Below, piece by piece: positions 2,731-52,090 of a stretch of 64,000 nucleotides of DNA. The stretch lies in contig JABAKD010000021.1 in assembly GCA_012845835.1 (NCBI GenBank), positions 4,960,706 through 5,024,705 on the forward strand, written 5' to 3'. The translations under genes and the position numbers were made by a program. Source of the stretch: Undaria pinnatifida. Its lineage: Eukaryota > Sar > Phaeophyceae > Laminariales > Alariaceae. The notes below the pieces were generated by a model. That model did not search any database, had not been told where the DNA came from, and saw only the letters and a list, made by a program, of their open reading frames with translations. How positions within the stretch are numbered: the stretch's first letter is position 1; every line of letters starts with the position of its first letter.

Positions 2731-2835
2731 CTTGTAAAAGTCGGGCAGCTCTCTCGCCACCCTCAGCTCGGCGAACTTCTCGAACTCTTTCCGCAGTTGC
2801 TCCAGGGACAGCTGGTCCCTGAAGGAGGACCTCAT
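2731..2835 (-). CDS. Receptor exon 7: start of the RGS domain
   Basis: The exon has 35 codons and enters and leaves in phase 0. The acceptor TTTTAG follows a C-rich tract and the donor is GTAAGC. The peptide runs from MRSSFRDQLS to ARELPDFYK. Its pattern F-x2-FA-x5-A-x-E-x3-FY matches RGS helices 1 to 3 (in AtRGS1-type proteins roughly F-x2-FA-x5-A-x-E-x3-F). It directly follows ...LPTPAQ of exon 6, the usual short linker between TM7 and RGS. About 80 further RGS residues should follow downstream (lower coordinates), but I found no exon for them. Confidence 0.75.
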
Positions 2836-5800
2836 CTAAAAGCGTCATCAGGGGGGGGGGGGGGGAGGGGGGGGGGCAAAACAGAAAATAAGGGCATCAA
2901 CAACATCAAAACAAACAAAACACATAGGCGACGGTGCTACGCAGCACAAAAAACTGGAGTCTGTCTATCTATCTCCCTATCGCACTATGACCCCCCCCCC
3001 CCCCCTCCCCACTAACCTGTGCCGGTTTCCCTGTCGTAACATAGCCCCCACCCATCCTCACCCCCCCCCTATTAGGTGTAGGAACGGTGCTCCGTCTCGA
3101 AAGGGATGCGTGGTCGACGGTCAAAGGACTTAAGGCAGGCAATGAATCAGCCCCCCCCGCCCCCCACCTCCCTGCTAACGAACCTGTGCAGGTGTCGGGA
3201 GTGTGGAAAAGCCCTTGGTGTAGCTGAACAGGTACTCCTGATCCCCTATCACGTACCGGTAGATGGGGTTGGCTACCGGAGGCCAGAACAGGATCAGAGA
3301 TGCCTGTCCGATGGGATTGGGGTTGGGGTGGACATGCGAGTTGGCGATGGAAATGAGGGTGAGGTTGGCGTCCGGGTCGGGGGGGGGAGGCGGTGGTTTC
3401 CTTGCGTTATGAGAAATAAGCATAGGAGAGGCATACGGTCGGGGTTGGAGTTGAGGTTGAGATTGGCTTCGGGGTCGGGAGGGGGTGGTCTCCTCATGTT
3501 TCGTGAAAAGAGTCGAGCAAAACTGAAGGACACGCCAGCTGGTGCTGGCTGACGAATGCGGTTGAATTAATTTGACACACGACTTGTACGAAAATACGGG
3601 GAAGGGTGGTGAGATGAAGCTTTACTCTTGGAACCTCAGGCGGAAAAAAAGTGTCTGCCACTACGCCCGGAAATATAGGCAACATTTTACTTCGACATCC
3701 AAGTCAAAACGTTTCTTACATTTCCAAAAAATAGAAATGGCAAGAAAAACGACGATTGCAACCTCGGCTATGCCAAGCAACCCGTGCTGTTGGGACATTC
3801 TCTCATTTATTTATTTTATTATTTTTTACATAATCACTTTTTTCTTTCCAGCTAAACTCGCAAGAGGCGTTTTTACTCTCAGCGACCTTCTGGAAAAGCC
3901 GTGGTCACAGGTGCCTGTCCACCCTTCCCCCCCCCCCGGTACGTGCTTCCATTTTAATCGCGCATAGGGTTCAGAATTCCCATGTTTTCAGCTTTTCATG
4001 CTCGTCGATGTTCATCGATTTTTCGCTAACCCACGCTCTCGCTTTTTCCGCTCGTCATATTTTTACGCGAGGAAAAGTCCCTGCAAGTGCGAGTACACGC
4101 TCCGGGGAAATTGAATCCACGAACTACCTGGACTTTAGCAGACACGAGGCTCACCTGCTATACAACCGGGGGCGCCGGCTATGGCTATCATACACGGAGT
4201 GCCCGAAACCCAATGCTAGGACGTGCACAACACGCGCGCCGCATGATGCAAAAAAACTTCCCACATCGGGCAGATGACGGTCTAGATTCTTGATCACGAT
4301 GTAGATCATCTATCACGATCTACCACAGATCATCCATCACGATCTAGATCAGCAATCACGATCTATCATAGATAATCCATCACGATCTAACATGGACCAC
4401 CAATCACGATCTATCATAGATCGTCCATCAAAGTCTAAATAATCTATCACGATCTACATCATCTCTCACAATTTAGATAATATATCACGATCTACCATAG
4501 ATCATCTATATCCTGTATATCTGTCGCTGCGATACGATGCGCAGGATCTGTGAGGCACAGCTCCAACCGAGCAAACACGTGTTAGATCGCGCAGATCGCC
4601 CAGTTCCCACTCGGAAATATGATCTAGGCCGTGTAGACCAAAACAGACCAGGGACCTATCTACCTGCTCTTAGATGTTAGGATCTAGACGTTCAAATGAA
4701 TATATCGTCATCCGTCGCAAACTACCTGTGCAGCGCGAATCACAACATGGAGGGCCACGCATGGACCACCCTTTCTTGTTGTTTATTTCCCCCTTGTATC
4801 TGGGTCTCAAAAAGAGGTCAAGCGCTGTCTCGAACCGCCTCTCGTCACCACCCGACTGTTTACCGCGCGACACTCACGATGACGTTGTGGTACAGCACCC
4901 AAATCCTCCTGATCTGGTGGTTGGAGTCCAGCCAGATCGCTTCCAGGGGGAAGACAACCGTGCCCGTAATCAGGACGATCAGCAGTTGGGATACCTGTCA
5001 ATAGCAAACAGCATAAATATATATATATGATCATTTTGGGGGGGGGGATTCGGTCAGGAGTTTTTTCCCGTCTCGGCCTAAGTATGCGATTCTCGGAACT
5101 GGAATTCTCGGTCAAATAGCTTCGTTCGAGCGCCGTCTTCGGGGGGCGGCTCAAACGCCCCTCGCCCTGCCGTATCCGTTCCACACCTGGCCGGGATCGG
5201 GTACGTGGGCTGAGCGAGACAAGCGATAAGTGCGCAATTTTTTTTTTTTGGGCGGTAAACACCCGAGCTATTCTTGGATTTTAGCATTTGCAGAGCTTGA
5301 ACGAAAAACACATATGATACCTGGTATGGGAAAACATTTATTTCCACGTTGGCATTATTTCCAAATTGGCTTCGTATTTCGTCTTTACACTTTTTTCATT
5401 ATCACACCTCGAAGCGTTTGGCCTATTGTGCACATCGTACGACTGACTGTTGTGTCGGTGCTTTTCGATATCGGAGTTCAAGGTTAAATACCTTTGTTCG
5501 AGCGTCCGTTGTCTTCGAGGAGGGCCGTTCCCTACCCAACGACATCATGACACCCAGTGCACGTGCTGATTCTTCATCCTAGAGAGATACAACTTATTAT
5601 TATTGTGTGGTCACAGACTGTGAGACAGAGTAAACCAAACAATCGCAATTAATCAAGATGTAAAGCAAGTGAAACGCTAGCAGCGTACCGGGTACGAAAA
5701 CACAACAAAACAGGCCAGACCATAGAATAAATAGAAAACAAACACAACGAATGGAGTCACTCTTAAAAATCGCAGTACGAGAAACAATGTTTTGTCGGTC

Positions 5801-8800: not shown

Positions 8801-11800
8801 GTATATTGAATCGAACAAGTCGAAGTGCTGCCTTGCCCTACCCGGAGCATGGGTGCCGCGAATGCCGGCACCCATGCGGAGCCTTTGTATATACGTATTT
8901 TTACGGCGGGTGTTTTTAATAGTGACATATGATACCAACTTTTTTCTTTTTTCGATTCGGTAGGAGTTGGTTAGAAAAACATATAGCTTGTACAATTAAA
9001 ACCGTCGTGCGTACACGTCACAATGCAAGGCCGACCCAACCCGCGAAAAATCGGCTAAAAAAGAGCAAAATTAGAAATAAATATGATGTCCTACCAGTAA
9101 ACATTTTAAAAAATGAAAAATACGCTTCAGCTGTGAGATCGACAAAAAATGATTGAAGAAGATCATTCCAACAACGTCAGCTGTGAGTTCAACGAATTTA
9201 GGGTCGATGCTCATCTTTGCAAGCTGTGTACTACATCGAACGCCCGGTTTTAGCAACTTCCATGATTGTGATCAAAACTCAGCTTTGCAAGCTGCGTGGG
9301 ATACTTCGATCGCCAGTATATATGTATGTACTAAATTTACTACTTCGCATTTTTTATTTATTTTTTTCTTGTGGTAGGTCGGTTGGCCTTGGTTTGTGCA
9401 TGAGGTTCATCGGTTTCAACACTATTTGTGAGAAAAATGTATATAAAATCAGCGTTCGACCCATATCTGTAAAAACAATTCGGGGCGCGCATCAATAACA
9501 ATGTCACCACTTTGAAATTTCCAACCCAAAAGATCGCAAGCACCCTAGAGAGCCACATGACGTTGAAGCCCCACATAACGTTAAATACCCACATAACGTT
9601 AAATGCCCACATAACGTTCAACACCCACATAACGTTTAACACCCACATAACGTTCAAGACTCACACAACTTTTAAGACCCACATAACGTTCAAGACCCAC
9701 ACAACGTAATAGGGGTGGGGATAGCTGCGGTCTTCCGGGACTTCAGAGTGAGCGGAAAAGTACTGGGGAAAAAACTGACGATTACGGCACCGGTCACACG
9801 AAGGCCCTCGGGCTGCTGAGGTAAAGCACATATTCGACGTGCAGCAGCGGAGCTTAGGGGCCTTCCTAACGAAGGAAAAAAATTACGATTCCTGGAAAAA
9901 AACAACTTAATGTTCTTCCTGACATTTCGAGATTCTGAAATGTCACGTGTTCAAAACAAGAATAAAAAATAAAACGAGTTTTGTTCTTGCCAGCGAGTCT
10001 CGACTTAACAGTAGATCGATTACATCGTAGGAAATTTTGAATTTATCAAACTACTCAAAGCCAGGGTTCCATGCCATTTTTGGTGTTCGTCAGGAATTGA
10101 TCCTTAGGGAAATGTGCGAACCGCCCCCCTCCCTCGCCCCCCATTCCATGGGGCGTTGTCGCCGTGCAGCCGGTACTCATTCACATGCTTCCTTCACCCT
10201 TGCCACATCAATCGTACTGCCTCGCGACCCCCCCCAATCCCTCCTCCCTTCTTCCGTCCCCTGCCCCCCCCCCAAGCCAGTCCCAATTATAGTGTTTTAG
10301 AACTCCCCCCTCCCCCTCCTTTCTCTCCCTGCCGTCGGTGCTCGTCCATCTGCTTTCTGCCCCTTTGCCATATCAATCATACGGTCTCGTAACCTCCTCT
10401 ACCCCTCCTCGCGTCTTCCCTCCCTCCCTCCCCTGCCCTCCCCCGAACCAGTACCAGGTGCCAATTATACTGTTTCGGAACCCCCCCCCCGCCCCCGCCT
10501 CTGTCCCTTTTCCATGGACTCGACCTACCAGGTATACGCAAGTCTAGGGTTGGGGTTAGTCCGGACCAAGGTGCAAATAATCGGCAGGGGGATTTATAGC
10601 TGACCCGTCCTGAGTCGCCTTTTCTTTTTCGCAATTCTGGATCATTATACAGGATGCGGTATGAAAATCGGGGAATTTGGTTTTGCCCACGTGTGCTTTC
10701 CAATATTGCGATAAGGAAAATACTACATTTAGACCCTGACCCTGACCCTCACCCCAACCCTACCCATACAATGTTGTCCGGAACAAAACCCGATTGTTTT
10801 TGTTGTTGTTGTTGTTGTTGTTGAAATTTCGGTCGACCGCATCAAAACTCGTACATGAAAATATTCGCCGATTTCCACACTGTATCCTAGATAGTAATCC
10901 AGACGTGTCGTAAGAGGCTACTGCCCGTCCTGCGTGCAGGTGGGGCCCATCTCATGGGGCATTTCTCACCTGGAGTCGGTACTCGTTCATCTGCTTTCTG
11001 ACCTTCCGCATCTGAAAGACCAAGAAAAACGCGCACACCACCGGTACGCAGCCGTAGACATAGAGGGCGGTATCGACGGGCTCGTACACCTCACACCAGT
11101 TGGTGCGTTCGTTGAAAAGGGACAGATTGTCGTCGATCGAGTACACGATCACCGGAGTGCTTTTGGTTTTGGTTTTGGTAAGGACCGTAGAAAAACAAAA
11201 GAGAACAGGGAAAACAAGGAAGGATAAAAACGTCAACCGGAGGGGGGGGGGGGGGGGGTAGAAAGTAACCGTTAAAAAAAGCGGAGGAAAGAGAGAAGAG
11301 GAAGGATAAAAACTGTTCAACGCGGAGGGGGGGCGGGGGTAACCGCTACGAAAAGACGAGGAAAGAGAGAAGAGGAAGGAATAGAAATGTTTAGCGCGGA
11401 GGGGGGGTCGAGGATAACCGTTAAAAAGAAGACGAATGAGACAAGAGGAAGCATGCAAAAGGTTTTAAGGAGAAGGGAGGAGAGGGGCGAGGGGTTCGGA
11501 TGGAGGTACAAATATTTTTCTTAACAATATGACCCCTCCCATTATGAAAAAACTCACCCACATAGTATATAACAAGTACCAACAACGCAGCTTGCAAAGA
11601 TGAGTATTGACCCGAAATTCGTCGAACTCACGGCTGACGTCCCTAAAATATTTTTATTAAATACCATTAGGAATGAGTTGGTGTGCTCGTTGAGCAGGGA
11701 AAAAGAGGCCTTCATCGATCGAGCACAAGAACATGGAAGTCTCTTTACTTTTTCTTTTTCGTGGTACAGCCAGAACACCAGAGAGGTAGGAGAAGGAGAA

Positions 11801-14800
11801 GGAAGGAAAGGAAGGAGAAACGCGTGTTAACCCCTTTAATGTTGCGCTCCTGGTGGAGACGGACTAGTTGGATTAGTATGGGATACCTTTTCCAGCAACG
11901 GAAGGATAAAGGGGTGGGAAGTGGGGAAGGAGAAGGAGGAAGGGGTGAAGGAGCAGTCAAGCAATTGGTATAATAAATTAATAGAATTTTGTTTTTGGGG
12001 AGACAAAATCTAGTCAACCTATGAACAGTCGGCCACTTACAGCCAGCCAACTCACGGCCTCGAGAAATTTGGCAAAAACTAAAAATACAAAACACGCTGC
12101 AGATACGAGATCGAGGATTTCGTCGTAACTGATCTTTGCAAGCTGTGTGTGATACTCCGATCGCGCGTGTTACGGGTTGTCTATGTCCTTATGAAGCCCG
12201 CCCCCCCCCCCTTTTGACCCCCCCCCCCCCCCCCCCTCTCCCCTTTTTAACTCCCGGCCCGTAGAACATCTCGCCCTCCCCTCACCGGTCACACGACTTA
12301 CAGGATCAAAATGACAAACTGATGCATTCCTTACACAGCCGTCAGATAATGTCCCCCTCAAAAACGGGTTTTAGAGTTTCCGCGCACAGATTGATCAGCG
12401 TCACCCTGTTGACCCTGGTACAAGCAACACTGCAGTTCTAAGGGGGGTCGCCGACCTATATCCTCAATGAGGATACACACCCAGTAATACGCGCGCTCGG
12501 AGTATCACACACAGCTTGCAAAGATGAGTTTCGACGAAATCGATCCCACAGCTGGAGTGTAATTGTTTTTTACCATAAAGGCTACAGGTCGGCCAACAGG
12601 GTGACACAAAGACTACAACCCTGATATATTTGCCCCCGCAAAAATATATGTTCAGCGAGTGTTTTTTTGCTTACGCAAAGCCCCAAACTATCATACTCAG
12701 CTCGCAAAAAAATGCTTTCATTCAAATCCTCATCTCGCCACGCGAGGTGTCTTTGTTTTTCAACTAACCCCTTTAGAACCCCAAAAACCCCTCCCCATAC
12801 TATTTTCAAGAAAATTGACCCAAAAAAACGGGTTTCCAGTTATAAAAGCGTTAAAACAATCAGCGAGACCTTCTTTTTCCCTTCTATTTTCGTTTTAATT
12901 TTTTTTTCGGAATGAATCCGTTTTTTGTGTGATTATCTGTGCACTCACAGCCATGGGAGCGTCAACAGCGCCACCTGCCCCGAGGCCGGCCACATGTCGA
13001 CCGAATGCCTAACAAGCATCTTCCAGCTGCGGTACACGCGCACCAACGCCACCGATATCCACACTCCCCACGCCGTGTATTGGAATAAGCTCACAAACCC
13101 GCACTGAGCTGCGCGCACATACAGAAAGACGGGCAGAGAGCAAGGGAGCCACGATATGGCTGGGTAAGCTGGTACGCCAATAGGCAGGCAGATAGGAAGG
13201 CGAACAGGGGTGCGGGGAAGGGGAAAGCAGGCGTGCAGGTAGGCATGAAGATAGGAACATAAGCATGGGGGAAAGCGGAGGAATAGGGGAGGGGGGGGGG
13301 GGGGGTTCATGGGGAGGATGCGTGCACACAGTAGGAGAAACCACATCGACCTCAACAAATGCGTGGCTTACCATTGCACCACCAGGGACGCGGGGTCCGT
13401 GTGTTGTCTGTGTTAAGATACGGCCTCGAAAGGCCTGTAATTATCCGAATTTGAGATGAGATGGGTTTCGTATGATAAGGTTGGCGGTTTATATTCGGGA
13501 AAGTTAGGAATTAGATCGGAGGCACGTGCCTCTGATCTCAGAAGCTATCCCGGGCTCTGGTGGAAACGAATAAAGCTACATCTCTACGAAGGAACGAAAG
13601 TGAGTACTCTCCGAGGACCTGCTCAATTGGCAGACCTGCAGGGGGCACTCTGTGTCACCCACCTGTACACTATGAATCCGTTTTTTCTACCCAACGGCAC
13701 CAATTACGAGGACAACAAGTGTGCGCGTGCTCTTCTCATAAAATAAATATTTTCGCCAAATCTACGCCCAGCGCAACAACCATTGTCCGGGCCCTTCACA
13801 TAAAACCAATCTTCCCACCCATCTACATCGAGCACAGCCAATGCCGATGCCTCCCAGAGAGACGAGCTATGCTACTGCTGTGGTCACAATCTACGAGACA
13901 TACACACACATTGCAAATGCAGAAAGGTGATTACGCCATGCAACATGCAACACCAGACGCGGCCTCCATCTTGGGGGAACCCTTCGGAACAGTTTGTCAA
14001 GTACGCGCGAGTAGGCGTTTCGCCCAAAATTACGAACAGCTTGGAAATAATGTGAACAACTGTACAAGCAACCAACAACTCTACCTTTGTCAGATCAAAG
14101 AAAACGATAATGGCGATTCTCAGCGCTTTTTCTCACTCAACGCATTTACAACTGGAAACCCCTTTTGGGGACAAATTTACTTGAATTTAGTATAGGGAGA
14201 GATTCGGGGGCTCTAAAGGGGTTAATAGCCATTTTTTTAGCCCAATACTTGACTACCTCAAACGGAGACGGATTTCCCCTGTTGACAATTTTTTTGGATA
14301 CGGACGCACAGTGTTTCGAAAGATGGGCGAACACCTCGAGCAAACTTTTCGTGAAAGCCGGTTCTTACATTCATACGTGCTGTAGCCACGGTAATACATA
14401 CTACAGGAAGTCGCAAACGTGTCAAAATCGCGGGTTTTGGAGCAGATTCTCTCCATTTTTTCCATTTTTTGGTGACGCTGGCTGGCAACTTTGACTGCAC
14501 GAAATCACCTCGCGAGTCATTTCTAGTTGCCTACGACTGCTGCCCGCTGCATCCGACGCCCTCACGTCTCACAGTGAGCTTGGCTGAAAATCGCGGGCTG
14601 TCGTTGCTGGTTAGGAGTGATGGAATGATGAGTGATGAGTGATGACATGTAGCTGCATTCAAGCGCAGCGCAACGTTCAGTCGGGGGTTGAGTCCTTTTC
14701 GTGTCCTTCTTGTGTCATTTACAGTTGTCTAAATTTGGACGATTTTCGACCACCCCAAGGTCGAGGTGCAGACCTCCGTTGAAAGAGTGCGGACGGCCGA

Positions 14801-17800
14801 TCTAGATACAATCACGAGCTGCTGTGGATGCAACAATATGCGCAATGACCCACTGTCTCGCCTCGGCAGTTGAAGGTCGGACTGCAGCGTGTTAACAACA
14901 AGGCGCAATTTACTGCACCAAATTAATACCTAGAGCTTATTAACAGAGCGAACCAAAAAACCGGGGATGGGGGATGGTGTAAGATCCCCGCGGCTTTAAG
15001 GTGCACTCCTCGTGGTCCGACTTTAGTGCGGTGTGTGCGGAATACCCTGTAGTGCGGGCCCCCAGATTATTTAGAGACGTGAAAACCGCTTATCACTCTG
15101 AAAAAGAAAAAAAAAACTGTTTTTCATTCAATCGTTTTCTAGTTTCAATTGTTTTTGGGCCGAAACGACAACAGCAGTAGCAGCAGTATCGATTCACAGC
15201 AACAGCAGTAGCAACAACAGCAGCATATAGGATAGGTTGGTACAAAGTAGTACAACAGAGGCACAATACGTCTCAATGGATGGAAGTATTGTGTGCGAGA
15301 CTCACCTATAAGGTCGCCGTCATGGCGGTCCACCACCCCCGATGCGATCAGCGAACCGAGAAAAGATACCACTCCGGCCAGTCCAGTTAGACACCTGTAT
15401 CACATCAATCGTCGTCGTCGTCGTCGTTTTTAGTGCTGTTCCAATTACCCAGCAATCAATCGAATTTGGCGTTGTTGTTATATTATATCATAAGTGAAAA
15501 ACGTCAGCTGTGAGTACGACTGATTGAATGGTTGAAACTCAACTTTTGCAAGCTGTGTGGTACATTTATGTTTCGCTAATATACAGTTAGTAGTTGCACA
15601 AAATTTTACGGTAGGTCGTTCGCGCGTGTTATATATTTGATTATCATGAAAGTTTTTTTTTATTTTTTTATTTTTATCCTCCGGCGGATGGGGAAAAATA
15701 AAGCTTTAGCTCACCACACTTCCGCGTATTTTCATACGCGTCGTGTGTCGATTTAACTCAGTTGCTTTCGCAGCCCAACGCTAGCTGGCGCACCCTTCGA
15801 GTCCCATTGTAGGTATAGCGTAAGCTGTCCCTATCATTGGTCCTCGTTACAACCCCGGCAGCGCAAGCTGCCGTTGTATACGGGTGCGTGTGTATGTCGA
15901 CCCGGCCTGTCCCCTGAGGGTCAGGTTCGGTGGAGATAGCCACCCGGAATGTCATCTTTCCGGGTAGTGTGGGACTTGCGCAAGCTCACCCACTAACAAA
16001 ACCCCTGGCCATGGGAGATAGCCTTCCGCCGGACTTGGTCCAGTTACGGTGAAAGTTGTTTTATGTATGAGAGACAACTTCCGCGCACACTGACTGGCAG
16101 GTTTTCTGCGGAATAATATATAATACGATCTCGGTTTCATATTGGGGAAAGGGTGCGCCCTTGACTCGTTTTTATTCGATCTACTTCCATTAGAATATTT
16201 GTACCTTTCCGTTTTCTCTTTCTCCCTCCCTAGACGTAACTCAGGTCCAGGATCACTTAAGCAGGTTCTTCTCCCCCTTCCCCACCATGGTACGTGTCTT
16301 CGTTTTTATCGCAACAAGACTTCAGCCCTTTCTTCCTTCGCCGACCCGCGTCGAATACAGTATAGCGCATACCCACGCTGCTAGGCGCTCTCAGCAGTTG
16401 ATTCCTTTGATTTCATATTTTAAAAAAGAAAAAACTCAAACGTGCCACCCACGTGAGATCCAAACTCCGAAATCATCTCTAGAGACGTTCGAGGGTAACT
16501 ACTAGATCACCGGGGCGACCGATGTTGCACTAACTTCAGCACGACGGCTCCCGGATTATTGTCCTGCTGTACCGACAGCAACGTAGGCACGTATCATATG
16601 TATGATATACCGCCCTACGTAGTGGGGACGGGGGAGGGGCGCCTTCTATGTTACCCCGGATCTGAGTTACGAAAGGGAAGGAGGTGGAGAAGCTGGGCAA
16701 AGCCGTCGTTAACGTTTTCAGAATAAATTGATTGGAAAAGAAGACAGAAGCTTAAGCTTCGAGTACTGCTGAGTGCGTATGGCACAACCTTCTTGCTTTT
16801 AACGATACACGTCATACTTCTACTCACTACTCTGTACAGCACCTGGTACAGGCGGAACAACAAATAAGAGACAGAAATACTGACCCAGACTGGGTTTCTT
16901 GTGCGGTTGCGTTCTACACAAACTTCGGTATCACGGCTGCACAATTCAATATGTGCCAACCAGCCTGTGCCTTCTCATTATCACCTTGTTTCTTATTAGC
17001 TGTGCTGTACTGTACATCGGCACCAACACTATCCTGTTTCTCAGGATATAGATATGACACATGCATACATGCCTTTTATAAGTGGTGTCGGTGGTTGGGT
17101 ATGATGTAGAAGAGACGGACCAATATTCAGTGTTCAATGTTCAATGACGTTGCACACCTCGGATAAGGTTGACACTTACTTAACGTTCGGCACCAATGTT
17201 ACGGTTCAGCAGGGCTTTTTGGCAACGTTCCATTACTAATAACACGTTATCCGATTTCTCGGTTTTGTGGTTACATGATGTTACCACGTTACGATATCGG
17301 CAGTAGATCGCTTGATGACAAGACGTTAGAGTGTTACGTTGCATCAGTATTGGCAGCAGCGTATTAACCCCTTTACAACTGGAAACCCGTTTTTGGGGAC
17401 AAAATTACTTGCATTTAGTATAGGGAGGGGTTCGGGGACTCTAAAGGGGTTAATAGTCTTACATTGTTAGGGTCGGCAGCCCGTGGCGTGTAACGTAATG
17501 TTGCGGTGTTAGCGAAATTCCCTGTTGCCATCTCAACACACGTTAGACGGCCAACGTACGTGCCCCACATAACGCTAACCTTATGTTACAAGTGCTGCCT
17601 TAGTTCGTACCACACTACGTTCAGTCGTGAAAAGGGGTCGGCAGTGCGTAGCCCGTAACGTAGTGTTTCGGTGTTTGCGGAATGCATAGCTGCTGTCTTA
17701 ACACTCGTTAGACGGGTAACATACATGTCCAATATCACGCTAACCTTTTGTTCTGTCTTAGCTCGTAATATATGACATACCAGGAGAGGAGGATACGCTA

Positions 17801-18582
17801 TCATCCACCCCCCCTCCCAGAAAAAAAAGACTTGCAAATATGCAAACCCGAAACAGGGGACAAAACAAAAATCCGCAATGACAACGCATCCGACATTTTG
17901 GGAAATCCCTCCATCCCGGGGACTCACAGGACTCAACCTACATATCCCTAATGTGCCTAGGGGGGAAGATTCATGGTGGTCTCTTCGGAATCAGAAACAC
18001 CGAAACATAATGGTACCCAACCGATGCCGCTTTTAGCGTAACACATGGTAGACCCCCAAGAGAGGAAACGGAAACGCAAATAACAGTACTGTACCAGAAA
18101 TTTTCAACTCCAACCGCTGTAACACGAAGTACCATACTGCCGTTACGATATCCGAATGTCTCTTGAGGTAACACAGCAGTGACGAGACATACTCTGTACC
18201 AGATAGTAACGAGGCGTTGGTCAGATAATACCATGTCATGTTTTCATGCGCCCGGGGCTATGGCGGGGTGTCCTGGCCAACTACACTTTACAAAACATTG
18301 ACAAACGACAACTTTATTATAGCTCGGTTCCAACCCCGAAACAACAAACTCAAACTCAAAATAATTTGAAGAAATCGGCACTTTCGGGCGATTTAGGGTC
18401 TTGTTTCTTTGAAAGTCGATATTTTTTTCGGGACCGGGGGAATAGAAATTGGCACAACCCAACCACAATTGGGTCAACGCAAACACCACCGTCATGTTAC
18501 ACGTATCTCAGCATTCAAGCTAACATCTACGGGGGTGTTACTTTGCGACCAGTTCTGACTGTAACTTAGTTAACGTGTTGGG

Positions 18583-18632
<50 letters not shown>

Positions 18633-21600: not shown

Positions 21601-24600
21601 CCCACCCATTCCCCTTCGATCAATACAAAAAAAGAGTACTCGTGTCTTGTAGATAAACCTGGTACGTGGTACAATAACGGCATATCACGACTCCTTACCG
21701 AACACGACAGAGGTACATGTTAACTAGGCCTCAAACCATCTGCCGACCAACGTACAGCGTGTTCGGTATGCTCTCTTATCAATAGGAGGTGTTGCGGCCC
21801 TTGGATCTGCAAGAGAGGGCAGACATGACTGTGTTTGAATCAAATGAAATTGCTCAGACGCAAGCGTTTTTTAATATTCCGGAGGTCCTGTTTGGTTTCT
21901 ACACCCTGCTATAGCCGAGTAGGACGTTGCGGACGGTCGAACTACAAGTAGTAGACGCCCAGGTAAGTTCGCCTACTCGGCGTTCTCGTCGAAAATCTGA
22001 GATAAAACAGTATCAGCAGCTTGAGAAACCACGACACTCTCCTTAACCTTATGCGAGAGTGCTACAGGTATATCCAGAGCTTCATATATCTAACATTGTT
22101 AGCAAGTTAGCGAATCGGTTGAAAGTGGTCTTGTGTATGTTATGTTGTTACCGTGCGAGTCTGGGCGAAGCGTAATGTTTGTGGGACGATGTTTGCACAT
22201 ACCAATCACAGCGTAACACTATCTTGCCGCACCAGAGCCGACGAGATTCGGAAGAACCATACCTGTAGCGGTGCTGCGTTACACTTTTTTTTTTTTTTTC
22301 ATCCTCCGGCGGATGGGGAAAAATAAAGCTTAAGCTCACCACACTTCCACGATTTTCATACGCGTCGTGTGTCGATGCTGCGTTACAACCTTCGTGTACA
22401 CCACACATTTGCAGCTTATGTAAACGTGTGTTCCTCGAATGCTAACACTATGGTAGAGCGTTACGAAGCCGCCGTGTTTGGCCCTATAACTTAGCTACAT
22501 GCTAAGTGTTATCGGAGTGTCACGTTATCTGAGGTGTGTAAAAATGTTCGATAGTGTGCAGGACCAGGTTGTTCACGTCAGTCACCTGGGACAAACACAA
22601 GGGTACTGCACACTGCGCTCGTATAACCAAGAGCCAGGGGCCGACAAGAGCCCGAACAAGCCAGACTATGCAGGCTACGACGCGTTCACCACTCCATGCT
22701 CCTCCGATGCCTTGGATGGCGGAAACGGAAGCGCGACGACCACACCCTATCGTACGCCGACGCGCTTGCCAAGACAGCTTCCGAGAGCATAGAGGCGATA
22801 ATGCGCAAACGGAGGATATTGTTTGCGGGATTCGTAGCACGTATGGGGGAGGAGCCTCTGCCACATAGGGTGATGTTTGGGGAGCTTGTTGGGGGTAAGG
22901 GCTACTCAGGGGGGGAAGAGAAGGACTGGATGGCTCATGTGAAGGAGGATATGTCGGTCTTTGGAATGAAATTCGAAGGGTGGCGAAAGGCTGCTCAGAA
23001 GGCCGGCAGATGGTTTCGACGAGTAGAGGAGGGAGCCGAGTTGTTCATGCGGAATTGTCATGAAACGGAGAGACACAAAACTGCAGAGCGACGCGAGAAG
23101 GCTGCGGCAGCGCCATCCACCGTTGGCATCTCTAAGCGGCCGGGGAAAGGGGGGAGGGGCGGAGGGGGGAGGGGGGGAGGGGGGAGGGGGGAATGGGGGA
23201 GGGGGGAGGGGGGGCGTCATGCCCAAGAGGCTGAAGTCTGGGGCTGGCCATCATCGTCTTGAAATTTGTGGGCCTTCCAATGGCCGTCACAAGATAGCGT
23301 AAGACCGCCCTGACTTTTTCGCCATGTTGGGTTCTCTCCCCAGTGCCATTGGTGATGGACTTGATACCCTCTATGAGCCCAATGACGTCTTTAGTCAGTT
23401 CCTATGGTCTGCTAGTATGACATTTTTTTCTCTTTTCCTTTCCTTGCTTCCTCTTCTTGTCTTGTATTTTCTTGCTTCCTTGTCTTTTCTTTCCTTTCCT
23501 TTTTCGTTCTTCGCTTTCTTGTCTATTCTTTCCTTTCCTTTTATCTTCTTTTCTTTTCTTTGTTTCGTTTTTCCAATTGACTTGTGCCTGTCGTGCGTAT
23601 GCGTAGTGATAGGTACTGCGAAAGCAACTGAGTTAAATCGACACACGACACGTATGAAAATACAGTAGCGGCTACGGTTTAAGATAACTTTTTTAAGAGA
23701 AAGTACGGATTTAAGAGAGAGGAATTGGCTTGTACCAATCAAAATCGATTCAAGAGAGAATTCCTATTGCTTCCGAGATTCTCTCTTAAATCGAACCATT
23801 TGGAAACCACGTGGACACACACATCACACACACAGATTGTGTTCAGGCTGACAGTCGTGAGGGTAGCGTTAGTTTCTTGGGTTTGTGTTATTTGTAGGGC
23901 GAGTGATGTCTCGATAATGTGAATTTTTTTTTTTCGTTGACTCGTGTTTTGTCGGGGGTTTAAATCGATGGGATGAGAGGTTGAGGGTGTTGTGTCGAGG
24001 GTACGGTGGGATGAAGGGGTGCAGTGTGTAAACGGGTGCGTCTTTCTTGAGTGCTGGTGCATTCGTAGCCTCGTGTTGTCCTTCTAGAAGAGGTGCGAGC
24101 ATGAAACACACCTATAAAACAACAACAAAACCACTACTGTACCGACTTTGCGTGTCCACGTGCAAAATGTGCATCGCATGACACGACGATGATTTATTTT
24201 CCAAGCGCAGATCCACCAAAATCGCACCACGTACTTGGGTCCACGTGCTCGCCAACCAAGAGAATGAGCCGTGTTTGGAGGTAGCCCGACGTGGTAACGC
24301 TTGCTGCGTTACGCGGCATTGAATGATACACTCTCTACGACCTCCTACGCCATATAGTTCGGACAAGAGCGTCTCTCTCTGGCGCGCTTTTGATTTGGCT
24401 ACGGTATAAGAGAATATTCTCTTATACCGTAGCCGAGACGGTATAAGAGAAAGCCGGATTTAAGAGAGAGAAATTGGCTTGTACCGACCCTCTCTTAAAC
24501 CGTAGCCGGTACTGTACGTGGAAGTGTGGTGAGCTAAAGCTTTATTTTTCCCCATCCGCCGGAGGATGGAAAAAAAAAAAAAAAAAAGATAGGTACTGCT

Positions 24601-27242
24601 GCTGCAGTTATACGTGGTAGTCTTTTTTGGGTGGCAAGCGGTATAGTCGGTTTTTCCAGGCGCGAGTAGTGAGACGCATGCACTAGTATGGACCTGGCAC
24701 ATCGTACGCTGACTCCCGATTCCACTTTTATATGTTTCTGGTGGAGGCATGAATTGCGTCAGCTGTGATATATATGCGTGTACCATCTTTGGTTTGTTTG
24801 TGTTTTTCCTGGGGTATTGCTCAGCTCCAGAGTGACTGGAGCCTGTCCCGTGACCACGGACGTGATTATTGTATGCGAGTTAATGTGAGAACAACAACAG
24901 CAACAGGAAGCGCACAGCGCACAATCAAGCTCTGTACGATACGCAGAACGATATCTTATGAATGCGAGAAAAAAAGATTCGTACTGGTGGGTGTGCTGGT
25001 TTGTATATGTCCCGTTTTTGTATCCATTGCGTATGGCATTGCATGGCAAACACCAGGTATAACCTTGCGAGCAGGGTGTCGAGTACGGCAAGCAGTGGTA
25101 CAACTACCACCTGTATTTGCGATGTCTCTGTTTCGTAGAGTGTGGTCACAGACCTTGTCTCTCTAGGATGAGGCATCAGCACGGTCACCGGGTATGCTGG
25201 GTGTGTCGAAAGAGCATGCGGGGCGCACACGCGCATACAAACCGCACACGAAGATACACCATTAAAAAAATAATTCAACGCCACACGGATATTTTTTCCC
25301 GAGACCCCGTAAAAAAACAAATAAATTGATGGAAATAAAATTCGAATAATAATTTTAGGTGGCACAAGCCACGCACCGCAAGGCACACGAACAAAATTTC
25401 CCCACCTATTAAAAGTTCAAGTACCAACAGAAAAACAAAGTACATACTCGTACGATGGTACATATACCGGTATGTTTTTTAAACAAAAGAAACGGACCCC
25501 TCCAGAAAAACTCACCCACACACTGTACCTTGTAGATATTACAAGTACTGTACCAACAACGCAGCTTGTAAAGATGAGTATTGACCCGAAATTCGTCGAA
25601 CTCACGGCTGACGTCTTTTAAATATTTTATACAACCGTGCGAGCAGTAGTCTACGGAGACAGCAGTGGCAAGCGGCACCACCTAGCAAATACAGCATGTA
25701 CCAGCAGCAGCACCACCAGCAGCAGGCAGCGCATACAGCATTCAACAGCAGCAGCAGCAGCAGCATCAGGCAGTGCATTCACTATACCTGGTATATTGTT
25801 GTTCTCACATCAACTCGCATAATAATAAGAATAAAGTCCGTGGTCACAGGACATGACCCCTTTTGAGGCCCGCCCGTGTATAGCGACTATCAATAGCCAA
25901 TATAGCGACCGAAAAAACTGCACTTCATTGCGATATTTTCAAGCGTTTGCCAATACAGACTACCGTGAGCGCGCAGCAGCAGTGTACGAGTAGGATCATG
26001 CCGCGCCCGTCCTGTACGAATCTTTCTTTGCTGTTGCATGTGTCGTTCGGACACCAATTTGATAATCGACAACCCAAAACCAGCACTGGCAGGTGCCGTG
26101 ATCATCAATTTTCGTCGTCAATTATTCTCTAGAAGGGGTCGACTCGTGTCACAATAGATGTGAACGGGAAAAAAGAATAAAAAACGAGAAACCAGGTACA
26201 GCAGTACAAGTACCGTAATTCAATTTAAACCGTTTCCCCCACCAACTCTAAGTAACAAGAAATTAAACCGTTATCCACACAAATTCCAAGTAGTTTTCAC
26301 TCCAAAAACGTGGGTGCAGTTCTGAAAAAAAAAAAATGTGAGATCGAGGAGTTCGTCGAAGCTCATCTTTGAAAGCAGCATGCAATCCTTCGATCGCGCG
26401 TGCAATGTACGGGATGGGTGTGTCCTCGTGAAGGATACTGCAGAATAGCTCGGTGACTCCTCCTATCAGTTAGTGCTACTAATGTACCTGTGGGTGAAGC
26501 AGTATGGTTCGGTTGCTAAACAAAACTCCGATTGTAGATAGAGGTATGTACGTAGAAATCAGATCAGGATGGCGCCGGGCAATTCACCACCAATTCCAAA
26601 TTCTCGAGCAAATAAATTGGAATTTGCTGCGAGTATACCTGGGCACCGAGTATAATATTTCCAACGACCAGAGCTGTGAAGGTCTGCGATATATCCTATG
26701 CACATCGGGGGTTGGTGGAGAGGAGACAAAACGAGCGAGCGAGTGAGAGCGTGCTAGCTCGAGGCAGCATTTCATAATACATTGACTATACAGCTGCATT
26801 TACCAGCGAGGGGGGCAAGCGCGTACGTACGCACACATCTCAAAGGATGGCGTACGAATCCGATGTTGTCTCACAAACTGATCTGCCTATACATGATAAT
26901 GTACGCGCGATGAAAAACAACCTACAAACAGTGCGAACACAACCAACGCCAAAACGAAAACACTCCAGACGCAAAAAAACACCATAAAAAGCAAATCAGA
27001 AACAACAAAGCCATTTTTTGCGGCACTTACACGAGGGAGATCTGACGAACGCAGTACGGCGGCCACGACCGACACTTCCACAGGTGCCCCACCGCGAGTA
27101 GCACCAAGATCTGATAGAACCCCGTCACACCGAGGTGGGCATAGTCGGGTCCTTTGAGCGAGGTCCACAGATCATCATCGTCCGCAATGTCTTCGCTGCT
27201 ATCGTATCTCAATCCTCTATGCCACATTTCGTCTCTCCACAT
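2731..27242 (-). CDS. Seven-transmembrane receptor with RGS domain (spliced, 3' incomplete)
   Basis: Exons, 5' to 3': 27242-27031, 15394-15306, 13108-12949, 11159-10970, 4994-4878, 3303-3184, 2835-2731. Together they give 993 nt, 331 codons, with no stop. Junction phases are 2, 1, 2, 0, 0, 0 and every split codon closes properly. Predicted helices: TM1 36-55, TM2 66-91, TM3 104-124, TM4 144-161, TM5 183-203, TM6 220-240, TM7 248-276. Cys103 at the top of TM3 and Cys176 in EL2 could form the classical GPCR disulfide. A basic VRVYRSWK follows TM3, and NPIY (268-271) sits near the end of TM7. Residues 297-331 resemble the first helices of an RGS domain. By family knowledge, 7TM-RGS proteins sit in the plasma membrane and accelerate GTP hydrolysis by a G-alpha subunit. 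The ligand is unknown. The rest of the RGS domain was not found in the window. Confidence 0.85.
3073..3150 (+). pseudogene. LINE 3'-end fragment in intron 6
   Basis: The sequence GGAACGGTGCTCCGTCTCG, followed by a stretch that reads RLERDAW in translation, is nearly identical to the ends of the LINE fragments at 19427-19842 and 21133-21610. As in those copies it is followed by a C-run. It is a 5'-truncated remnant lying between exons 6 and 7. Confidence 0.65.
3184..3303 (-). CDS. Receptor exon 6: TM7
   Basis: The exon has 40 codons, phase 0 at both ends. The acceptor is CGGACAG; the donor, GTTCGT, is weaker than the GTGAGT/GTAAGT of the other introns. It encodes the second half of TM7 with NPIYRYV, an NPxxY-like end, then a soluble linker ending in LPTPAQ. 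Continuing past the donor meets a stop (TAG) after two codons, so splicing is required. The intron to exon 7 is only 348 bp. Confidence 0.8.
3556..3650 (+). mobile_element. Diverged SINE copy
   Basis: A diverged relative of the SINE at 22284-22375 and 23620-24587. The shared order is TTGACACACGAC, GAAAATACG, GGTGGTGAG, AAGCTTTA, then GGCGGAAAAAAA at the tailed end. It is old compared with the other copies and lies in intron 5. Confidence 0.5.
4278..4515. repeat. Minisatellite with ATCACGATCTA core
   Basis: About ten degenerate tandem copies, 20-33 bp each, built on ATCACGATCTA and CATAGATCATC. They lie in intron 5 of the receptor, upstream (on the minus strand) of exon 6. No coding frame is kept. 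Confidence 0.8.
4878..4994 (-). CDS. Receptor exon 5: TM6 and start of TM7
   Basis: The exon has 39 codons, phase 0 at both ends. The acceptor is TATTGACAG and the donor GTGAGTG. It encodes QLLIVLITGTVVFPLEAIWL, a hydrophobic helix with a central proline typical of TM6, then a short loop and IWVLYHNVI, which continues into exon 6 to complete TM7. Confidence 0.85.
5047..5245 (+). repeat. Dispersed repeat, second copy at 40838-41035
   Basis: About 180 bp are shared with 40838-41035 in direct orientation. Common blocks are GTCTCGGCCTAAGTATGCGA, GAACTGGAATTCTCGGTC, TTCGGGGGGCGG and CGCCCCTCGCCCTGCCGT. A weaker fragment occurs near 5478-5530. I cannot assign it to a transposon class. Confidence 0.7.
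5881..5945 (+). repeat. 5' fragment of the GTT-headed dispersed repeat
   Basis: A (GTT)n run is followed by CTCACATTAACTCGCATAA and TCCGTGGTCACAGGACAG. This is the head of the repeat that is complete at 18582-19050 and 42200-42575. Here homology stops after about 65 bp. Confidence 0.7.
6295..6493 (+). repeat. Tandem duplication of the GTT-repeat tail
   Basis: Two almost identical 100-bp units (6295-6394 and 6395-6493) both start with a TACCCATCACTACGCATACG block and end in AAAAGGGGTATTATA. The block is the 3' part of the GTT-headed repeat. Confidence 0.75.
6941..7016 (-). mobile_element. SINE copy with A-tail
   Basis: A T-run on the plus strand precedes TCAGGCGGATGGGGAAAAAT and GCTCACCACACTTCCACG. 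On the minus strand this is a short SINE ending in poly(A). Related copies are at 15651-15771, 22284-22375 and 23620-24587. Confidence 0.65.
7425..8025. repeat. Three degenerate tandem units of about 200 bp
   Basis: Units at about 7425-7615, 7655-7830 and 7845-8025 share this order: GCCAATGGA or similar, CACACCGTG, GGGGAGGTAT, GACCCGGGAGA, a Y-rich middle, then ACCGGGGATGGGACCCTATC. The forward frames read alike in units 2 and 3 (HTVxGGxDPG), but stops interrupt unit 1. It lies in intron 4 of the receptor. Confidence 0.7.
8340..9300 (+). repeat. Copies of the TTTGCAAGCTG dispersed repeat
   Basis: Copies lie at 8340-8435, 9120-9240 and 9265-9310. Each carries CAGCTGTGAG, then a 30-bp block ending CTCATCTTTGCAAGCTG. 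The family is described at 39594-40065, where the longest copy is. Confidence 0.7.
9562..9708. repeat. 18-bp tandem repeat, about 8 copies
   Basis: The unit is CCCACATAACGTTMAASA. Because 18 is a multiple of three, both strands stay open: the plus frame repeats THITFN and the minus frame NVMWVF. This is a repeat, not evidence of a gene. It lies in intron 4. Confidence 0.85.
10146..10211 (-). pseudogene. Decayed copy 1 of the end of receptor exon 4
   Basis: Read on the minus strand, the segment contains RKHVNEYRLH, against RKQMNEYRLQ at the 3' end of exon 4. The flanking intron start (plus strand ATGGGGC) is also similar. The donor GT is lost. It lies about 760 bp downstream of exon 4 in intron 4 and is repeated in tandem with copy 2. 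Confidence 0.5.
10324..10372 (-). pseudogene. Decayed copy 2 of the end of receptor exon 4
   Basis: The plus strand has TCCATCTGCTTTCTG within a block that differs from exon 4 at only a few of about 38 positions. Minus-strand translation gives RKQMDEHRRQ, against RKQMNEYRLQ. A one-base insertion upstream breaks the frame and the donor GT is gone. Copies 1 and 2 are about 180 bp apart within C-rich sequence. Confidence 0.6.
10970..11159 (-). CDS. Receptor exon 4: end of TM4, EL2, TM5
   Basis: The exon is 190 nt: one base completing Leu154, then 63 codons, leaving in phase 0. The donor is GTGAGA. The acceptor, CCAAAAG, lacks a good pyrimidine tract. It encodes TPVIVYS (end of TM4), a 20-residue extracellular loop with NWCEVYE, where Cys176 can pair with Cys103, then TM5 (ALYVYGCVPVVCAFFLVFQM) and the basic intracellular MRKVRKQMNEYR. 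Confidence 0.85.
11214..11455. repeat. Three tandem units of about 70 bp
   Basis: Units share GGAGGGGGG, TAACCGTTAAAAA and GAGGAAAGAGAGAAGAGGAA. They lie in intron 3 just upstream (minus strand) of the exon 4 acceptor. Confidence 0.75.
11520..11665 (-). repeat. TTTGCAAGCTG-family copy
   Basis: Minus orientation. It contains AACTCACCCACATAGTATAT, CAACGCAGCTTGCAAAGATG and the conserved GAATTTCGGG block, ending with GACGTC. One plus-strand frame reads SIDPKFVELTADV, as in other copies. Confidence 0.75.
12095..12565. repeat. Inverted pair of TTTGCAAGCTG-family copies
   Basis: A plus-oriented copy (12095-12175) and a minus-oriented copy (12487-12565) flank 310 bp that include long C-runs. Both carry TGTGTGATACTCCGATCGCG beside the TTTGCAAGCTG core, a sub-type shared with 8340-8435. 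Intron 3. Confidence 0.7.
12768..12850 (-). mobile_element. piggyBac-like MITE, degraded copy
   Basis: This is the reverse complement of the element at 17368-17449: CCCCTTTAGAACCCC at one end, CGGGTTTCCAGTTATAAA near the other, and TTAA at 12851-12854. One target TTAA has become CTAA. Confidence 0.6.
12949..13108 (-). CDS. Receptor exon 3: TM3 and TM4
   Basis: The exon is 160 nt: two bases completing Ala101, 52 codons, and two bases of Leu154. The acceptor is GTGCGCGCAG and the donor GTGAGTG. It encodes Cys103 followed by GFVSLFQYTAWGVWISVAL (TM3), the basic VRVYRSWKM at the inner end of TM3, a short loop, and GQVALLTLPW (TM4). Confidence 0.85.
13411..13660 (+). mobile_element. Solo LTR of the Gypsy element
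   Basis: It starts TGTTAAGATACGGCCTCG and matches the LTRs at 29197-29465 and 33423-33691 for about 245 bp, with scattered substitutions. The last 20 bp diverge. There is no internal region beside it. It lies in intron 2 of the receptor. Confidence 0.85.
13661..14140. other. No gene assigned; cysteine-rich reading frame
   Basis: One plus-strand frame contains CYCCGHNLRDIHTHCKC (about 13868-13920), a zinc-binding-like pattern that could be a relic of a transposon protein. The frame is not open at useful length and I do not recognise a family. Confidence 0.25.
14141..14221 (+). mobile_element. piggyBac-like MITE, one end eroded
   Basis: About 90% similar to 17368-17449. It has an intact right end (CTAAAGGGG then TTAA at 14222-14225), while the left TTAACCCC is eroded. 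Confidence 0.65.
14226..15300. other. Intron 2 sequence, nothing recognised
   Basis: I see no exon-like or repeat-family sequence here apart from CAG-type triplets near 15170-15225. Confidence 0.4.
15306..15394 (-). CDS. Receptor exon 2: TM2
   Basis: The smallest exon, 89 nt: one base completing Val71, 29 codons, and one base of Ala101. The acceptor is TGATACAG and the donor GTGAGTC. It encodes CLTGLAGVVSFLGSLIASGV, a hydrophobic helix, then the charged VDRHDGD. Only this frame is open. Confidence 0.8.
15651..15771 (-). mobile_element. SINE copy, near full length
   Basis: A T-rich run (the tail in minus orientation) is followed by ATCCTCCGGCGGATGGGG, the common body and CAGTTGCTTTC at the far end. 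That end matches the 5' end of the copy at 23620. It lies in intron 1. Confidence 0.75.
15775..17360. other. Intron 1 sequence, nothing recognised
   Basis: There are several short open frames on both strands (for example the minus strand at 16651-16959), but none has family similarity, supporting splice phases or a conserved copy elsewhere. Confidence 0.4.
17368..17449. mobile_element. 82-bp piggyBac-like MITE
   Basis: TTAA at 17364-17367 and 17450-17453 flank perfect inverted ends CCCCTTTA / TAAAGGGG. Duplicated TTAA with CCC...GGG termini is the hallmark of piggyBac-type elements. There is no coding capacity. Related copies are at 14141-14221 and 12768-12850. Confidence 0.75.
17468..17770. 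repeat. Two tandem units of about 165 bp
   Basis: 17468-17612 and 17636-17770 share the order GGTCGGCAG, GTAACGTA, TTGCGGTGTT or similar, CGTTAGACGG, ACGCTAACCTT and CTTAG. The second unit is diverged. Intron 1. Confidence 0.6.
17771..18580. other. Intron 1 sequence, nothing recognised
   Basis: I found no gene or repeat family in this stretch. Confidence 0.35.
18582..19050 (+). mobile_element. GTT-headed dispersed repeat, complete copy
   Basis: The order is: (TTG) repeated about 17 times, CTCACATTAACTCGCA, GGTCACAGGACAGGC, CTGGAGCTGAGGAAT, TGCCTCCACCAGAAAC, CTACTCGCGCCTGGAAAA, CTACGCATACGCACGACAG, then a purine-rich tail of AAGG/AAAG repeats. Further copies are at 42200-42575 and 23400-24905 (both minus), with fragments at 5881, 6295 and 25793. 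A non-LTR retroposon is possible because one end is a simple repeat tail. The type is unproven. Confidence 0.7.
19427..19842 (+). pseudogene. LINE-like ORF2 C-terminal fragment
   Basis: The frame reads LPERRKRYASS, then CPCG-x-IESRSHIVGEC, a CxCG...H...C zinc-binding pattern like that at the C-terminus of many non-LTR retrotransposon ORF2 proteins. It continues through EEEMRKLYGCDMEEF to a stop after RLERDAWSIVK. The 5' part is missing and a C-run sits at the truncation point. 21133-21610 and 3073-3150 are copies of the same family. Intron 1 of the receptor. Confidence 0.65.
19895..20160 (+). pseudogene. Further degenerate LINE segment
   Basis: Broken forward frames contain a segment EKFGGYKTRSK and a basic Glu-rich tail. 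In LINE proteins I would expect such a segment upstream of the zinc pattern, so this piece seems displaced. Several stops interrupt it. Confidence 0.35.
20440..20885. other. GC-rich segment with unrecognised open frames
   Basis: A GC-rich island in AT-richer intron sequence has long open frames on both strands (plus 20385-20885, 166 codons). Neither has a recognisable family, and both are rich in Arg/Ala/Ser as expected from composition. Confidence 0.2.
21133..21610 (+). pseudogene. LINE-like ORF2 C-terminal fragment, second copy
   Basis: It begins slightly further 5' than the first copy (MDYAKKRKLRFRLGDLDL), then CLCG-x2-IESRTHRIGEC and EEMRKLDGCDTEEF. A frameshift or stop at about 21467 breaks it before the shared RLERDAW end at about 21540-21570. 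Confidence 0.65.
22284..22375 (-). mobile_element. SINE copy with 12-bp target duplication
   Basis: TGCTGCGTTACA occurs at 22272-22283 and again at 22376-22387, exactly flanking a T-run (the poly(A) tail on the minus strand) plus the SINE body. A tailed insert with a 12-bp perfect duplication is the signature of LINE-driven retroposition. Confidence 0.85.
22580..23262 (+). pseudogene. LINE-like reverse transcriptase C-terminal fragment
   Basis: From 22696 one frame reads RCLGWRKRKRDDHTLSYADAL, RKRRILFAGFVARM, MFGELVGGKGYSGG and EKDWMAHVKEDM, then WRKAAQKAGRWFRRVEEGAE. This R-RRxLxFxG...GxRxxGGxxxxWxxxxxxDL...W-x2-A order is the post-RT region of many non-LTR elements. The upstream catalytic RT is not found. 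It ends in a long G-run. Confidence 0.6.
23663..24514. mobile_element. Mariner-like non-autonomous TIR element, 852 bp
   Basis: Ends are CAGTAGCGGCTACGGTTTAA and, inverted, CAGTACCGGCTACGGTTTAA, one mismatch. It is flanked by TA (23661-23662 and 24515-24516), and removing it with one TA restores the SINE sequence GAAAATACGTGG. CAGT termini and TA duplication fit Tc1/mariner. Subterminal TTTAAGAGAGAG and TTGGCTTGTACC recur at both ends. No transposase frame is present. Confidence 0.8.
24397..24434. repeat. Perfect 38-bp palindrome
   Basis: GGCTACGGTATAAGAGAAT is followed at once by its exact reverse complement, with no spacer. The sequence is a variant of the TIR of the surrounding element, so two TIR-like ends stand head to head inside it. 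Confidence 0.9.
25400..25622 (-). repeat. TTTGCAAGCTG-family copy, extended
   Basis: Minus orientation. The extended parts AATTTCCCCACCT, ACCCCTCCAGAAAAACTCAC and GTACCAACAACGCAGCTTG lie in the same order as in 34970-35172, 35285-35670 and 39594-40065 (reversed). Confidence 0.65.
25640..25860 (+). repeat. CAG triplets and GTT-repeat fragment
   Basis: 25690-25770 is rich in AGCAGC triplets. 25793-25860 carries the GTTCTCACATCAACTCGCAT and GTCCGTGGTCACAGGACA head of the GTT-headed repeat, with a short AATAAT insertion. Confidence 0.65.
25861..27020. other. Intron 1 sequence near exon 1
   Basis: A diverged TTTGCAAGCTG-type copy is at 26325-26410. The plus strand has an 80-codon open frame at 26504-26746 that I cannot assign. 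Nothing else is recognised. Confidence 0.35.
27031..27242 (-). CDS. Receptor exon 1: N-terminus and TM1
   Basis: The start is taken as the ATG at 27242-27240, the first ATG in an otherwise open frame. It gives a 35-residue acidic extracellular N-terminus (IADDDD), TM1 (LGVTGFYQILVLLAVGHLW) and the basic WKCRSWPPYCVRQISL. The donor GTAAGT leaves two bases of Val71, which exon 2 completes 11.6 kb away. TTTCAG directly before the ATG could instead be an acceptor, in which case a further upstream exon exists. Confidence 0.75.
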
Positions 27243-29196: not shown

Positions 29197-29465
29197 TGTT
29201 AAGATACGGCCTCGAAAGGCCTGTAGGTGTCCGAATTTAAGATCATTTGGATGGGTTTCGTATGATAAGGTTGGCGGTTTATATTCGGGGAAGTTAGGAA
29301 TTAGATCGGAGGCACGCGCCTCCGATCTCAGAAGCTATCCCGGGCTCTGGTGGAAACGAATAAAGCTACATCTCTACGAAGGAACGAAAGTGAGTACTCT
29401 CCGAGGACCTGCTCAATTGGCAGACCTGCAGGGGGCACTCTGTGTCCCCCACCTTTAATTTCACA
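29197..29465 (+). repeat. Gypsy 5' LTR
   Basis: TG...CA ends (TGTTAAGATACGG ... AATTTCACA). It contains an 11-bp perfect hairpin, AGATCGGAGGC / GCCTCCGATCT with loop ACGC, around 29303-29328. Confidence 0.95.
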
Positions 29466-30753: not shown

Positions 30754-30765
30754 TGGTGGATTGGC

Positions 30766-33422: not shown

Positions 33423-33691
33423 TGTTAAGATACGGCCTCGAAAGACCTGTAGGTATCCGAATTTAAGATCATTTGGATGGGTTTCGTATGATAAGGTTGG
33501 CGGTTTATGTTCGGGGAAGTTAGGAATTAGATCGGAGGCACGCGCCTCCGATCTCAGAAGCTATCCCGGGCTCTGGTGGAAACGAATAAAGCTACATCTC
33601 TACGAAGGAACGAAAGTGAGTACTCTCCGAGGACCTGCTCAATTGGCAGACCTGCAGGGGGCACTCTGTGTCCCCCACCTTTAATTTCACA
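33423..33691 (+). repeat. Gypsy 3' LTR
   Basis: 269 bp. It differs from the 5' LTR at three positions, all G/A (or A/G) transitions. It ends AATTTCACA and is followed by the TGTA duplication. Confidence 0.95.
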
Positions 33692-33695
33692 TGTA

Positions 33696-51999: not shown

Positions 52000-52090
52000 C
52001 GCTATAGCGTCAAAGGTGTCTACTGCTCCGTCGTCCCCTTGGACTACACTAGACTGCTGTACGAGAGAGGCCTGATCAACCTGTCTCATC

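Follow-up and report, generated by a model that had tools for sequence, protein, structure and literature searches.

Introduction

Does a gene scattered over 24.5 kb of the genome of the brown alga Undaria pinnatifida encode a receptor that carries its own G-protein off-switch? Complex multicellularity in brown algae evolved independently of plants and animals, and we examined this question in a window of 64,000 nucleotides (assembly GCA_012845835.1, contig JABAKD010000021.1, positions 4,960,706 to 5,024,705; C28:4960706-5024705 in our numbering) for which a preliminary description had proposed a seven-transmembrane (7TM) receptor running into the start of a regulator of G-protein signaling (RGS) domain. 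We find that the gene is intact as far as read, and we consider it likely that it encodes a 7TM receptor with a C-terminal cytoplasmic RGS domain that would act as a receptor-controlled GTPase accelerator.

Results

Seven exons in the window join into one conserved reading frame

Seven minus-strand exons (212, 89, 160, 190, 117, 120 and 105 nt) lie between positions 2731 and 27242 of the window and join in phase into 993 nt, or 331 open codons, with no stop, and the six introns between them (11636, 2197, 1789, 5975, 1574 and 348 bp) are GT-AG in 6/6 cases. This reconstruction reproduces the span, the total length and the largest intron (11.6 kb) of the preliminary description, whose judgment that such a chain is unlikely to arise by chance is borne out: each of the eight nearly full-length relatives, from the 22 described below, matches all seven exons at E<1e-3 (tblastn on the window), and 20 dinucleotide shuffles of the window gave no match below 1e-3 (best 0.035). 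Outside the gene model, the same eight relatives gave 61 window matches at E<10, none of them below 1e-3 (best 0.1). The weakest acceptor among the window exons is that of exon 4 (AAAAG), and the junction codon of this exon yields a Leu-Thr-Pro run in agreement with the relatives. The proposed cysteine pair of transmembrane helix 3 (TM3) and extracellular loop 2 is also present, as C103 and C176. Among the 22 relatives the TM3 site is Cys in 13 and a gap in nine, and the loop-2 site is Cys in 19 and a gap in three; one of those 19 rows, P0022, which covers exon 7 only, is probably a misalignment.

Two phrases of the preliminary description went too far. The claim that no exon stands out as a long open frame is overstated, exons 1, 3, 4 and 6 lying inside stop-to-stop frames of 194, 140, 170 and 148 codons, respectively, with no gene-like marks on them. 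Its "24.5 kb of repeats" is right in that the introns hold four tandem arrays and copies of two repeats, D1 and D5, but is likewise too strong as worded.

The left flank completes the RGS domain

The RGS domain begins in exon 7, as had been claimed, and the exons predicted to lie left of position 1 are there: within the 10 kb left of the window (L003; window coordinates equal L003 positions minus 10000) we found exons 8 to 10 and the start of exon 11 (Table 1). Exons 1-10 join in phase into 430 stop-free codons, and the gene extends over about 34 kb, the end of exon 11 being approximate. In the joined protein (537 aa as given), residues 302-413 match the Pfam RGS profile PF00615 at 28.4 bits, above the cut-off of 23.9, and the first 30 residues of this match are encoded inside the window. 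Exon 7 alone gave no Pfam RGS match because its 35 aa are too short, a difficulty resolved by exons 8-10. The refuting condition named in the preliminary description, a translation without RGS or 7TM profile match, was escaped partly by the window alone and fully with the flank: RGS is positive once the flank exons are joined, whereas the window exons by themselves stay sub-threshold and 7tm_3 falls below its cut-off of 33.5 bits (17.5 bits for the joined protein, 19.3 bits for window exons 1-7 alone).

Intron 9 (L003 6135-4971) is GC-AG, with the donor gcaaga, and database models of relatives break at the same point: Laminaria digitata P0009 is short by about five residues there, and Hapterophycus P0017 ends. 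This suggests that a rare GC donor is common to the relatives and is misread by gene predictors.

The start of the last exon occurs in three tandem minus-strand copies at L003 4558, 4278 and 3375 (window -5442, -5722 and -6625), each directly after a CAACAG acceptor. The two extra copies match exon 11 at 61 and 56 of 81 nt, and each reaches a stop of its own. Near L003 3550 there is a fourth, degenerate copy. The extra copies could possibly provide alternative C-terminal tails, or they could be decaying duplicates.

Table 1. Exons of the Undaria receptor gene and related places in the same genome
Feature	Position	Strand	Content	Evidence
Exon 1	27031..27242	-	start codon, short N-terminus, TM1, start of TM2; ends in phase 2	tblastn with brown-algal relatives, GT donor
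Exon 2	15306..15394	-	most of TM2	tblastn with brown-algal relatives
Exon 3	12949..13108	-	TM3 (Cys103), start of TM4	tblastn with brown-algal relatives, cysteine alignment
Exon 4	10970..11159	-	remaining TM4, extracellular loop 2 (Cys176), TM5	tblastn, cysteine alignment
Exon 5	4878..4994	-	TM6, start of TM7	tblastn; Laminaria digitata P0009 starts at exon 5
Exon 6	3184..3303	-	TM7, linker	tblastn with brown-algal relatives
Exon 7	2731..2835	-	start of RGS domain, residues 297-331; Pfam match from residue 302	tblastn, Pfam
Exon 8	L003 7555-7625	-		match to relatives
Exon 9	L003 6136-6216	-		match to relatives
Exon 10	L003 4826-4970	-		match to relatives
Exon 11, start	L003 3375 downwards (window -6625)	-		match to relatives
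Related place	C28 ~2.87 Mb		part of TM6-TM7	P0009 match
Related place	C32 ~7.17 Mb		part of TM6-TM7	P0009 match
Related place	C32 ~7.22 Mb		part of TM6-TM7	P0009 match
Related place	C37 ~5.85 Mb		part of TM6-TM7	P0009 match
Related place	C56 ~8.21 Mb		linker and RGS only	P0009 match
Related place	C61 ~18.14 Mb		linker and RGS only	P0009 match

The relatives share exon borders, and the named ones are brown-algal

A search of the joined translation against 5.8 billion proteins gave 10 matches at E<=10, and a second search with an alignment of nine of those ten gave 22 at E<=1, the original ten included. Organism names are attached to 17 of the 22, brown algae in every case (Ectocarpus, Scytosiphon, Ascophyllum, Laminaria, Discosporangium and Hapterophycus); the other five are two eukprot and three lgn entries. 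The earlier remark that a fusion of receptor and RGS is rare in animals is consequently beside the point. Every named relative is titled "unnamed protein product", and ten are marked partial or short. The eight nearly full-length relatives share 59-69% identity with the window protein, the L. digitata fragment P0009 90% over 115 residues (88% over 223 columns) and P0019, a distant Ectocarpus paralogue, 30%; along Ectocarpus P0003 the window protein aligns to residues 6-332. Pfam scans of 18 relatives found RGS in 17 and 7tm_3 in 11 at E<=0.01, with a best 7tm_3 score, among ten relatives scanned, of 31.6 bits, below the cut-off.

Database models that are truncated or misread begin, end or skip at the exon borders of the window gene (read by eye). 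P0006 starts at exon 3 and both P0009 and P0017 at exon 5; P0010 is without exon 6; P0020, P0021 and P0022 correspond to exons 4-5, exon 4 and exon 7 only, respectively; and P0005 departs from the family just past exon 7. These coincidences suggest that intron positions are conserved among the relatives. A first tree with 18 of the 22 relatives left the deep forks unsettled. The second, with 15 rows (the window gene and 14 of the 22 relatives, P0005, P0010 and P0017-P0022 being left out as short, misread or distant), resolved two well-supported subfamilies; the window gene falls inside that of P0003 and is paired with L. digitata P0009 at a support of 100/99.

The predicted 7TM bundle is nearest to class C receptors

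We built an AlphaFold2 model on an 18-protein brown-algal alignment with Ectocarpus P0003 first, and the seven ordered helices of the preliminary description are seen in the predicted structure of this relative (residues 32-57, 69-89, 104-135, 143-163, 181-208, 213-242 and 244-276). The predicted local distance difference test (pLDDT) score reaches 70-87 in 19 of the 25 ten-residue blocks of residues 31-280, with a mean of 57.5 and a predicted template-modeling score (pTM) of 0.49 for the model overall. Foldseek returned four matches at E<=0.001, three to GPR158, which is on top, and one to mGlu2; TM-scores are modest, and class A and adhesion receptors stand at close E-values among the 50 matches listed. 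The VIA list, which views the Foldseek matches a second time, has class C titles on 48 of 50 listed rows, the remaining two titles naming no receptor. We take GPR156, GPR158 and GABA-B to be class C receptors. Collectively, the modeled structure supports a predicted G-protein-coupled receptor (GPCR) fold nearest class C.

The likeness to class C receptors (GABA-B, mGlu, GPR156, GPR158) lies in the bundle fold of the Ectocarpus model and in sub-threshold 7tm_3 matches. The algal protein differs from them in scoring below the 7tm_3 cut-off and in its short N-terminus: about 30-40 residues precede TM1, and the joined protein gave no Pfam match to a large extracellular (Venus-flytrap) domain at E<=1. 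This domain is not universal in the class, since GPR156 is a class C receptor that is not known to have it. Besides the top match, other GPR158 entries are titled complexes with RGS7-Gbeta5; RGS7 is a separate protein there, whereas the algal RGS domain is fused to the receptor. Putative diatom receptors have been reported as closest to class C, near GABA-B (PMC3727952; this and the other PMC sources are cited from excerpts).

The RGS domain resembles that of plant RGS1

By hhalign, the whole profile of the algal family matches plant RGS1 at E=3.6e-13, a score carried by the RGS part, which by itself gives E=1.9e-14 over 105 columns; plant RGS1 was the sole partner in this profile comparison. 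A sequence search of solved structures with the window exons gave no match, and the algal profile matched 25 animal RGS chains at E<=1, the best being RGS16 at 3.4e-6. Within the RGS domain, the Glu in exon 7 is kept in 20/20 relatives that cover the site and the EVN-type Asn in 15/15 aligned relatives, and both fit a catalytic reading. The EEN, KDS and EVN-type positions are, we assume, important for G-alpha contact, as in RGS4.

The plant 7TM-RGS proteins (Arabidopsis AtRGS1 and its orthologues) share with the algal proteins an N-terminal 7TM part, a C-terminal RGS domain and a short N-terminus, and agree with them at two RGS positions, FY for FW and Asn for Asp (five plant rows, one animal row). 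The algal side differs in the long tails of several relatives and in its several related genomic places. At E<=0.01, 20 plant RGS1 proteins drawn from 120 listed gave RGS in 20/20 and 7tm_3 in 1/20, and precomputed labels place 7tm_3 on 19 among the 120 plant proteins listed. The predicted model of plant RGS1 is too poor for a fold comparison (mean pLDDT 48).

Candidate partners and related places in the same genome

The genome (511,146,479 bases, 68 contigs) contains 21 G-alpha matches, which fall at six places, each on a contig of its own; in the control for this search, one of 14 control genomes gave a match, below cut-off. A switch-I motif with the glycine reported to be required for RGS action (PMC9283941) is readable at four of the six places; at the other two, the stretch read showed no such motif. 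In Ectocarpus, six G-alpha paralogues are reported to be expressed in gametes (PMC3879662). At E<1e-3, P0009 matches seven places in the Undaria genome, of which one is the window locus and six are others (Table 1). P0003 and P0014 of Ectocarpus sp. 6 are on contigs of equal length (1,963,932) and so probably lie on one contig, like the two C28 loci here. The first genome search yielded two RGS matches, L001 and L002. Only one weak match to them (P0019 to L002, E 0.008) came from tblastn at E<=0.01 with six proteins, so both appear to be RGS proteins of another sort.

Other features of the window

A 272-nt repeat is present in three copies, at 13407-13678 (inside receptor intron 2), 29197-29468 and 33423-33694. 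On the plus strand, a Copia-type retrotransposon occupies 51579-57695, with 300-nt terminal direct repeats that are 99% identical and, between them, integrase and reverse transcriptase matches (RVT_2 E=5.6e-43). An open frame at 30754-32550, also on the plus strand, matches the integrase core profile (rve, E=2.1e-6, below cut-off) and is probably a remnant of a long-terminal-repeat retrotransposon. The arms of an inverted repeat, 38779-39215 and 46534-46970, are 437 nt long, 92% complementary and 7.3 kb apart. The window gave no match in Rfam or tRNA scans.

Discussion

The homology, the flank-completed RGS match and the modeled relative all support the 7TM-RGS reading of the locus. We propose that an extracellular cue would be sensed by the 7TM part through its helical bundle and short loops, altering how accessible or how active the tethered RGS domain is. 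This domain would accelerate the GTP hydrolysis of G-alpha at the plasma membrane; the receptor would thereby set the off-rate of G-protein signaling, as proposed for AtRGS1. The analogy that the algal protein may work like AtRGS1 is well founded because of the shared architecture, and the two may or may not descend from the same fusion.

Several observations weigh against a receptor-controlled GTPase accelerator. The RGS region of the P0003 model is of low confidence, and the RGS region of the window gene alone is weak against solved chains (12 at E<=1, best 0.021). The 7TM parts alone, compared with the plant RGS1 7TM, gave hhalign probabilities of 0.2% and 0.8%, so that the profile comparison lends no support to a shared origin of these parts in algae and plants; the better of these two weak alignments aligns the TM3 and loop-2 cysteines. 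In addition, the EEN Asn of animal RGS16 is Leu in the window gene and in 15/15 algal relatives, and the KDS Asp is Asn in 14/14 algal relatives covering the site. With these two residues changed, activity as a GTPase-activating protein (GAP) is not certain.

The two departures from animal RGS16 would also suit an RGS domain that serves as a non-catalytic tether or scaffold, binding active G-alpha without speeding its hydrolysis. We regard this as very unlikely, as the Asp-to-Asn change is common to 5/5 plant RGS1 rows and AtRGS1 is itself a reported GAP (PMC9283941, PMC3386157). A conventional class C-like GPCR, activating G-alpha as a guanine nucleotide exchange factor (GEF) and relying on a built-in RGS domain to shut the signal off fast or sharpen its kinetics, would account for the class C identity of the nearest solved folds, the weak 7tm_3 profile matches, the several G-alpha places and the rank of GPR158 as Foldseek top match, other GPR158 entries being titled RGS7-Gbeta5 complexes. 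It is nevertheless an unlikely account: no large ligand-binding domain was found in the short N-terminus, and plant G-alpha under 7TM-RGS control is reported to self-activate without a GEF (PMC3386157). Least credible is the view that the gene is a dead copy or a set of open frames joined by chance. The huge introns, the weak exon 4 acceptor and the GC-AG intron 9 could be taken for its marks, yet the match of 8/8 relatives to 7/7 exons, the 0/20 shuffles, the stop-free frame through exon 10 and the close identity to L. digitata all speak against it. We favor the receptor-controlled GTPase accelerator.

The 7TM-RGS architecture itself is already known from plants, from Naegleria and, by report, from Trichomonas (PMC9283941). 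The 7TM RGS proteins of Naegleria fowleri, compared here by description, resemble the algal ones in their C-terminal RGS domain and in forming a multigene family beside many G-alpha genes, and the RGS domains of several are reported to be GAPs; unlike the algal protein, several carry large extracellular domains (PMC9283941). As far as our searches show, the novelty lies in the description of the brown-algal family, for which we found no published account in the literature searched, preprints and papers under other licenses being outside its coverage. More tentatively, and with some doubt on our part, a "receptor-GAP" mode of G-protein signaling like that of plants might operate in brown algae, independently and at scale. 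One genome might then set as many as seven receptor-RGS genes beside some six G-alpha genes, the receptors would combine a class C-like 7TM part with a plant-like RGS domain, and the tandem last-exon copies could possibly supply alternative C-terminal tails.

How brown algae sense signals is poorly known, and a receptor with its own G-protein off-switch, together with several G-alpha genes, offers testable candidates. The family also provides a further lineage in which to ask whether 7TM-RGS fusions are ancient or have arisen more than once.
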